64,000 bases of DNA from an uncultured bacterium. GTDB taxonomy: Bacteria > Edwardsbacteria > AC1 > EtOH8. The stretch spans positions 124,001 through 188,000 of the forward strand of contig CALMGM010000005.1 in NCBI GenBank assembly GCA_937863685.1. The letters run 5' to 3'. Made by a program: the position numbers and the translations under genes. Under the pieces are notes generated by a model. The model was not told where the DNA came from. It was given only the letters and a program-made list of their open reading frames with translations, and did no database searches. Below are positions 7,282 to 53,825 of the stretch, piece after piece. Each line of letters opens with the position of its first letter. The stretch's first letter is position 1.

Positions 7282-9102
7282 TTACCAGGCATATACTCTG
7301 ATGTTATCCAGGTAGAAACCTTCCGACGGATACGCGTTCCCCGCGGCATCAGTATTGAAAGCAAAGGCGAACCTAACAATCTGTCCTATGCCCGGGTTGC
7401 AATTATACCATGTGCCTGTCGTCCAGTTGCTTTGGTTGCCAGAATACACTGCCCCGCCGTTCACAAGGTTCCAATTCGTCCCGTTATCAATGGAGTAGAT
7501 CAAACGGGTGGCATCCGCCGCACCATCGGTGCGTGACCACCAATCGTAAACGATACGAAGGCCATTGGTGTAAGTGATGCAGTTCATGCTCGGCAAGAAT
7601 AGTGTATCATTCACTGCAGTGGTGGCCGGTCCGGGGTATGGTATCGAATAACTTGAGTCGCTAATATCGGCACAATGCCAGCTGTATGAACCTCCCCAGG
7701 TTGCCGAAGCCCGGCGGGTGGAACGATGCCACAGACGCTGGGCCGACCAACCGTTGCTGCCATTCTCGACATTGTCGTCAAAAATGCATCTTACGATACT
7801 GGCGGTATACGGGAAAGCGTAGAGGGTGGTGCCGTTGATGAAGTCATCCGACACATATCCGTTCGCCTCATTGGCCGGCTCTCCGCCAAAGTTATTGCCA
7901 TTCTGGTCAAGCATCAGTCCGCCGGTATCCCTGACGGCACGGCTGACCCATAGATAATCCGTCCCCAGGGGACGAGGCCTATTCTCCAAAGTATAGGACA
8001 CGCCCATGGAATCAGGCAGCACCCTGATGGTGCCGGGTATATAGCCTGTTGCATCATTGTTGTCGTAAAGCTTGATGGTGGTGGCGTTCATGGAGGCCAC
8101 ATTCATTTTACGGGTAAAGTTGATTATCAAAGTATTGTTGTTATCCGTATAATAGGCCTCGCGAACTATAAGATGCAGTCCGGTGGGGTATGGATCAAAA
8201 GTCCTGAATCTGACCACTACTTCATCTTCCGAATCTCTTTCCGACAAATTATCATCATCGCCGTCCAGAGTATTGCCATGAATATCCTTGATGCCGGTTT
8301 TGACGGTAAAGATATAATTGGTGGCCTCGGTCAGACCAAGCGGCCTGAATTTAACCAGATAAACTCTTTGAGGTGTGGTAACTTCCGTAACGCTGATGGT
8401 CGGAAGCGGCACATTTACTCCGGCTTCCGTGGTCAAGGAGAAATTTGAAGCTATCAGGGTAGCGGGATCAATGCTGTCATAGGGCGCAATCTGATCATCC
8501 CATATTGTAATCCTAATGGAATCGGTAAGGGCGAAGGCCAAAGTGTTGTTGGCGGGGTAAACCCCGGCCCTTGGTCCCCTGAAATTATAATACTGCACGG
8601 CAGAAGTGGCGCCCCAGAATTGCTGATGATAACTGTCCTGGGGATCCTTGTTGTTGTCATTGCCGTTGCCGTCAATGGTATTGCCGCGCTTGTCCTTTGC
8701 CCCTGTGGTCACGGTGACCAAATAGCTCTTGCTGTCCTCCCAGACACCGGTAATCTTGATGATGGCCTTTTTTGTTTTTGCGTCATAAGTAACGGTGTAG
8801 GTTATCGGTGCCGTCATGTTTTCGACATTCTGGAGCTTGACCGTGCTGGTGGTTATGGTTGACGGCTCCATGTCCGAATCGAAAACGATCCCGATCTCAT
8901 CATAGGCCGGGGTATGGTATATAACCTGGTTGCCGCTTAAATCGGTGCAGGATACGACTTTCGGTCCCCGGTTTGAAATAAGAGAACCGGAAACGTTGTA
9001 TGAACTGGTGATCGGTTCGAACGGGTTTTCTTTCTTGCCACAGCCCACGATGACGGCCCCGATCAAAAGGATAACAGTCAGAGTATATAAGGCTTTTCTC
9101 AT
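7282..9102 (-). CDS. Lipoprotein with SbsA-type Ig-like (Big_5) repeats and a C-terminal lectin/MAM-like domain
   Basis: Predicted surface or periplasmic lipoprotein of 606 residues. A lipobox (IVGC) ends the N-terminal hydrophobic stretch, and the Cys is about residue 21. Next come about three Ig-like repeats of the Big_5 type, recognisable by 'IGIVFDSDMEPSTITTSTVK', TLAFALTDSIRITIWDD and LIINFTRKMNVASMNATTIK, each with a TVK/GIKDxxGNxxDGxxxN ending. The C-terminal ~150 residues carry the 'DWWSRTDGAADATRL..SIDNGTNW..GFYLDNIRV' pattern seen in immune-inhibitor-A/MAM-like beta-sandwiches. The ATG at 9102 has GGAG 8 bases upstream and is better than the ATG at 9120. It follows the OM protein gene with 19 bases between, so the two are probably one operon. 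Function unknown; adhesion or cell-surface structure is a guess. Confidence 0.82.
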   Translation of the reverse strand: MRKALYTLTVILLIGAVIVGCGKKENPFEPITSSYNVSGSLISNRGPKVVSCTDLSGNQVIYHTPAYDEIGIVFDSDMEPSTITTSTVKLQNVENMTAPITYTVTYDAKTKKAIIKITGVWEDSKSYLVTVTTGAKDKRGNTIDGNGNDNNKDPQDSYHQQFWGATSAVQYYNFRGPRAGVYPANNTLAFALTDSIRITIWDDQIAPYDSIDPATLIASNFSLTTEAGVNVPLPTISVTEVTTPQRVYLVKFRPLGLTEATNYIFTVKTGIKDIHGNTLDGDDDNLSERDSEDEVVVRFRTFDPYPTGLHLIVREAYYTDNNNTLIINFTRKMNVASMNATTIKLYDNNDATGYIPGTIRVLPDSMGVSYTLENRPRPLGTDYLWVSRAVRDTGGLMLDQNGNNFGGEPANEANGYVSDDFINGTTLYAFPYTASIVRCIFDDNVENGSNGWSAQRLWHRSTRRASATWGGSYSWHCADISDSSYSIPYPGPATTAVNDTLFLPSMNCITYTNGLRIVYDWWSRTDGAADATRLIYSIDNGTNWNLVNGGAVYSGNQSNWTTGTWYNCNPGIGQIVRFAFAFNTDAAGNAYPSEGFYLDNIRVYAW

Positions 9103-53486: not shown

Positions 53487-53516
53487 TTGACAACAAAGAT
53501 ATATTTATACTATAAT
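53487..53516 (+). promoter_or_regulatory. Consensus sigma70 promoter for the GG-leader peptide
   Basis: Perfect TTGACA (53487-53492), 18-bp A/T spacer, perfect TATAAT (53511-53516). This is the best promoter in the window; the leader to the ATG at 53592 would be about 70 bases. Confidence 0.85.
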
Positions 53517-53591
53517 AACAGAAGTGATTTTCCTAAATATGAACTATTATTTAGGAAGTAGACGTTAATAATCATTATCAAAGGAGCATCC

Positions 53592-53765
53592 ATGAAAAAA
53601 CTGGGCTTTGAGGAACTATCCGCAATTCGCGGCGGCGAAGAGGAAGGCTACTGTAATTGCTATGGACAACAAGATGATCCAGATTATACAGGCCATTTTA
53701 AAGGCGTTGATGGGTTAGATTCAGAAACCGGTCATTTTATGGGAGTTGATGGCCTTTCAACATAG
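53592..53765 (+). CDS. 57-residue double-glycine leader peptide with repeated core (candidate RiPP/bacteriocin precursor)
   Basis: Starts at ATG 53592 with AGGAG 7 bases upstream. The N-terminus MKKLGFEELSAIRGG has the leader pattern of peptides cleaved after Gly-Gly by C39-peptidase transporters (Leu-Ser...Ile-x-Gly-Gly, GG at 14-15). The predicted 42-residue core begins EEEGYCNCYG (Cys21, Cys23) and holds two tandem repeats, TGHFKGVDGL (33-42) and TGHFMGVDGL (46-55). The repeats differ at 8 bases but in only one residue, so selection keeps the protein. The core is acidic (10 Asp/Glu) with two His. Own consensus promoter and strong terminator. No maturation or export gene adjoins it; tdh is divergent and dtd follows. 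Function is inferred from pattern only. Confidence 0.8.
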   Translation: MKKLGFEELSAIRGGEEEGYCNCYGQQDDPDYTGHFKGVDGLDSETGHFMGVDGLST

Positions 53766-53791
53766 GATTTCATAAGCACATTTTAATCTTG

Positions 53792-53825
53792 ATAAGGGCT
53801 GCATATAGCAGCCCTTTATTATTTT
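53792..53825 (+). terminator. Terminator of the GG-leader peptide gene
   Basis: Perfect 11-bp arms ATAAGGGCTGC / GCAGCCCTTAT (53792-53802 and 53808-53818), 5-nt loop and a TATTTTATAT tail. It lies 27 bases after the stop, so the peptide is transcribed alone. Confidence 0.9.

Follow-up and report, generated by a model that had tools for sequence, protein, structure and literature searches.

The window analysed here is a 64,000-nucleotide stretch (G000:C5:124001-188000) of an Edwardsbacteria genome, G000, whose 2.72-Mb assembly was read in stretches. Between genes for a zinc-type dehydrogenase and a dtd-like protein, in intergenic DNA rich in AT (GC 33-36%), it carries a small gene whose ORF translation, divided into leader and core, is MKKLGFEELSAIRGG|EEEGYCNCYGQQDDPDYTGHFKGVDGLDSETGHFMGVDGLST. 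A preliminary description of this DNA had claimed a 57-residue gene with a consensus promoter, an AGGAG and a terminator, all of which were confirmed at 53487-53816 (Table 1). Its statement that no C39 transporter or modification enzyme lies beside the gene was likewise borne out by inspection of the neighbouring ORFs.

Table 1. Features of the peptide gene and its surroundings (window coordinates).
Feature	Position	Strand	Basis
Sigma-70 promoter, TTGACA-N18-TATAAT, 12/12 consensus	53487..53516	+	motif scan
Perfect 10-bp inverted repeat TTCCTAAATA-8-TATTTAGGAA, 5' UTR	53530..53557	.	repeat search
Shine-Dalgarno AAAGGAG, just 5' of ATG	53579..53585	+	read from sequence
GG-leader peptide gene, 57 aa	53592..53765	+	ORF and family profile, E 1.4e-11
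Leader MKKLGFEELSAIRGG	53592..53636	+	hydrophobic -15, -12, -7, -4 and GG
Predicted mature acidic 42-mer	53637..53762	+	predicted cleavage after GG
Motif copy 1, TGHFKGVDGL	53688..53717	+	repeat search and codon comparison
Motif copy 2, TGHFMGVDGL	53727..53756	+	repeat search and codon comparison
Intrinsic terminator, 9-pair stem and T tail	53794..53816	+	hairpin analysis

The -35 (53487-53492) and -10 (53511-53516) hexamers are separated by an 18-nt spacer. This exact spaced pair occurs only once in the window, and there are four matches to it with at most one mismatch, against 0.15 expected. Across the 2.72-Mb genome, 43 exact TTGACA/TATAAT pairs with N17 or N18 spacers were counted, and one of them precedes each of the GG-peptide transcription units (4/4). 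The inverted repeat directly after the promoter is a candidate operator or 5' UTR RNA hairpin; it matched no Rfam family at threshold. A known RNA element in the gene was rejected, the sole Rfam match being sub-threshold and lying over the terminator, and so was a Fur box in the 5' UTR, where the 19-mer had no match at ≤3 mismatches.

Leader, doubled motif and distribution of the gene

PCAT peptidases recognise leader positions -15, -12, -7 and -4 together with the Gly-Gly pair (PMC7018657). The leader described earlier as a Gly-Gly leader fills all of them (M-15, L-12, L-7, I-4, GG). Exactly one ORF of the window has a canonical leader of this kind, and none was found in each of 12 dinucleotide shuffles. 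The core contains two Cys residues (CNC) and ten acidic residues, as had been noted, and its net charge is -9.

The doubled motif is encoded by DNA repeats at 53688-53713 and 53727-53752. The two TGHFxGVDGL copies differ at eight bases with a single amino-acid change (K/M; pS 0.79 versus pN 0.11). The form (A/T)GHFxGVDGL is also found in a single peptide of G004 and a single peptide of G007, two genomes of a genus other than that of G000, where the variable residue x is Q or R. Across genera, synonymous differences amount to 0.6-1.1 per site versus 0.05-0.12 for non-synonymous ones, the latter essentially at x only; over these few sites, the comparison argues strongly, if not exactly, for purifying selection on the motif. 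The earlier claim that the motif sequence is maintained by selection was thus supported both by the repeats within the gene and by the two relatives of the other genus.

The site itself is variable. Three further sampled species of the genus have the dehydrogenase and dtd genes on either side of this place and lack the peptide gene there. The site holds about 70 bp in one of these species, about 500 bp with no recognised gene in another, and a TPR gene without a peptide in the third (G002). Because it is missing between the same flanks in three congeners, the gene is, judged by this comparison of genomic sites, an accessory cassette. The preliminary description had named absence of the peptide or of any C39 transporter from close relatives as evidence against its reading: both the motif and the transporter are present in the two relatives of the other genus, whereas the gene itself is missing at the site in the three congeners, and absence from relatives as a whole was not what we found. 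A phage or plasmid origin of the peptide was considered and dropped when the homolog search came back empty, and a peptide search against the genome contig database gave no confirmed match.

The short length of the ORF, its AT-rich intergenic setting and its absence at the site in three relatives would also be expected of a chance or decaying reading frame. Such an origin is nevertheless very improbable given the family-profile match (Table 1), the complete set of expression signals and the apparent purifying selection across genera.

A multigene peptide family and its probable transporter

The gene had been called isolated, which does not hold at the genome level, as it belongs to a multigene family. 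We collected 29 GG peptides from four genomes. Their leaders are nearly uniform, and nearly all of the other 28 fill the PCAT recognition positions. The family shares the leader and an acidic linker and differs in short C-terminal motifs; every core carries a net negative charge, between -2 and -9, and most are 16-30 aa long and contain no Cys. Most of these peptides are short enough for length cut-offs to miss. The family profile matched 4 of 290 genomes, namely the four Edwardsbacteria with a full-length PCAT, and none of the 280 genomes outside the phylum. Within the phylum, peptides are present in 4/4 genomes with a full-length PCAT and in 0/6 without one (Fisher P 0.0048, with genome relatedness ignored).

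The preliminary description had placed the processing genes elsewhere and proposed a search of the rest of the genome for a C39 transporter and further GG-leader ORFs; both were found. The start of a PCAT gene encoding 729 aa is at C5:311516, at a distance of 134 kb from the gene in the window; a gene for an HlyD-like protein comes after it. Just upstream, on the opposite strand, lie three GG-peptide genes, and two more solo GG-peptide genes are present in G000 besides this trio and the gene in the window. The PCAT consists of C39, membrane and ATPase domains (domain search), aligns end to end with PCAT1 (4ry2) and ComA, and is the only full-length C39 PCAT in G000. A stand-alone C39-like protein of 159 aa is also encoded in this genome (L002, G000:C5:249964-250317); it has an N-terminal hydrophobic segment, and its gene is preceded by a perfect consensus promoter (L109).

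The closest named relatives of the PCAT outside the phylum are mostly from Bacteroidota, with up to about 62% identity, which suggests that the transporter was gained laterally. These relatives bear on the possibility that the peptide is a RiPP precursor, in which an enzyme encoded elsewhere would modify core residues (CNC, Tyr, Asp) ahead of cleavage by the PCAT. Bacteroidota transporters related to the PCAT adjoin Cys-rich GG precursors (TIGR04149 type), and a radical-SAM-linked precursor family gave a weak match, below its cut-off, to one of the sister peptides. In contrast to those precursors, the Edwardsbacteria cores are not Cys-rich, most of them having no Cys at all, and the peptide studied here has no TIGR04149 match. 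In addition, no modification gene was recognised in the peptide loci read, and TldD/TldE and SPASM genes are also found in genomes that have no peptides. TldD/TldE, which had been proposed as a maturase, are present in all ten Edwardsbacteria, including the six without peptides, which argues against this role; a SPASM radical-SAM maturase was rejected in the same way, its genes being present in all ten genomes and not peptide-specific. Overall, we regard a RiPP precursor as rather unlikely.

A class II bacteriocin or microcin would typically have just such a GG leader and PCAT export, and among the sisters two have weak, sub-threshold Bacteriocin_IIc matches and one passes the generic leader model TIGR01847. 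We consider this function improbable, as every core in the family is net acidic and the peptide in the window matches no bacteriocin family in NCBIfam or Pfam. No immunity gene was recognised either, including beside the peptide gene, although such proteins are hard to recognise.

Probable export of, and possible signalling by, the peptide

Taken together, these observations point to a GG peptide that is exported by the PCAT and acts as a signal, a reading to which we assign a probability of about 0.5. The PCAT would bind the leader, cut after Gly-Gly and export an acidic 42-mer in which GHFxGVDGL is present twice. Serving as a peptide signal, the motif would then most likely be recognised outside the cell or inside a neighbouring one. 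Further trimming of the mature peptide to a motif-sized product is conceivable but doubtful. Cleavage and export by the PCAT are highly probable from sequence comparison, because the leader positions, the PCAT and its HlyD partner, the three adjacent GG peptides and the co-occurrence across genomes all agree. Extracellular signalling is the most likely function, if a tentative one; the internal duplication of the motif, and of VYKPPVxP in a sister peptide, is a feature frequent in RRNPP propeptides (PMC10075063) and points in this direction. Of the earlier suggestion of a RiPP, signal peptide or bacteriocin, GG-leader export is supported, whereas the three functions are not separable by sequence; the uniform acidity of the cores speaks against a pore-forming bacteriocin. 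A candidate phylum represented here only by metagenome assemblies thereby gains a secreted-peptide family and an export machine that can be tested.

We compared this arrangement with known systems. The PCAT systems of Streptococcus (ComAB-ComC, BlpAB, RtgAB) and PCAT1 share the -15/-12/-7/-4 and GG leader and the full-length C39-membrane-ATPase transporter. The Edwardsbacteria differ in being didermic-type, in having an HlyD partner and peptide genes far from the transporter, and in the acidity of all cores; compared with the Streptococcus systems, no histidine kinase or immunity gene lies beside the gene studied here. RRNPP systems (Rap-Phr, NprR, PlcR), described for gram-positive bacteria, have in common with it a short propeptide with a C-terminal motif, internal duplication and some TPR neighbours, and the 57 aa fall within the RRNPP propeptide size of 10-100 aa. 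In contrast to RRNPP, the gene lacks a directly adjacent TPR receptor of 250-500 aa, TPR neighbours being found at only some sister loci, and the peptide has a PCAT-type GG leader, where RRNPP propeptides use Sec or PptAB export. If the peptides are signals, peptide communication would extend to a didermic-type lineage.

By description rather than by sequence, the family also resembles EbfG1-4 and PteB of Synechococcus elongatus, where several small GG proteins are served by a C39 transporter and, with it, enable biofilm formation (PMC4997328). By analogy with this direct precedent in a Gram-negative-type envelope, the peptides could be secreted structural or biofilm components of the matrix or cell surface. 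The strong promoters, the acidic, repetitive cores and the matches of some sisters' C-terminal motifs to secreted-protein segments would suit such a role. We nonetheless consider it unlikely, since most cores, at 16-30 aa, are short for a matrix protein and the motifs are precisely kept across genera. For its part, the Edwardsbacteria family shows motif modules and an in-frame link to a secreted-protein gene.

Secreted-protein segments and TPR neighbours

C-terminal motifs found elsewhere in the family correspond, beyond the level of shuffles, to segments of larger proteins that are secreted or lipid-anchored. In G003, which belongs to the same genus as G000, the frame of the third PCAT-adjacent peptide runs on beyond the stop into what is left of a secreted-protein gene, a 49% match that begins inside the peptide and extends over 210 aa; this arrangement has the appearance of a fusion origin. 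An intact 1211-aa homolog of these gene remains, in G000, contains IIYGRATTYGDYY, which is close to sister peptides, and lipoprotein-like proteins of G004 terminate in the motif of those sisters. The run-on of peptide and secreted gene spans L027 10150-10860 (G003:C23).

In the window itself, a lipoprotein with a Big_5 domain (7285-9102, minus strand) has GKKENPFEPIT directly after the lipobox Cys. A GG peptide from G003 ends in exactly this sequence, and the two coding segments agree at 29/33 bases. For GHFxGVDGL, no donor was found in G000 at E up to 1 or in the DNA stretches read. The matches may go back to gene birth or to mimicry, or may represent a recognition tag common to peptides and larger proteins. 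They offer, together with the in-frame fusion, a route to studying how secreted peptides arise.

TPR_12 genes, detected with a profile seeded from peptide-free genomes, occur no more than 1 kb away from 5 of the 14 peptide units, versus 0.9 expected (P about 0.001, in a test chosen after looking). One neighbour combines AAA and TPR domains and a second cyclase, AAA and TPR domains; a third is a kinase-GAF-sigma54 regulator. The gene in the window has no TPR neighbour, and each of the ten Edwardsbacteria genomes contains TPR genes in abundance. The enrichment may reflect only shared variable sites, because TPR genes occupy two such sites without peptides: G002 has one at the site of the gene studied here, and species that have neither peptide nor PCAT carry, at the site of the C5:408 peptide, diverged relatives of the TPR gene that adjoins it. 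The link between TPR genes and peptides is thus suggestive only. The predicted structure of one TPR neighbour, of moderate confidence (pLDDT 72), had its best matches to LGN, with RapI ranked only 34th; it is a generic TPR fold and not diagnostic.

As a broader speculation, to which we give little credence, GG cassettes of Edwardsbacteria might capture segments of the cell's own secreted proteins and lipoproteins as new signals, which one PCAT would export and intracellular TPR/STAND proteins would read, a Gram-negative-type counterpart of RRNPP.

One sister GG peptide of G000 (L063 5849-6010, G000:C5:408848-409009) has a doubled motif of its own, VYKPPVxP. Between this sister and a TPR gene lies an ORF of about 85 aa (L063 6216-6473, minus strand), followed by its own terminator-like hairpin.
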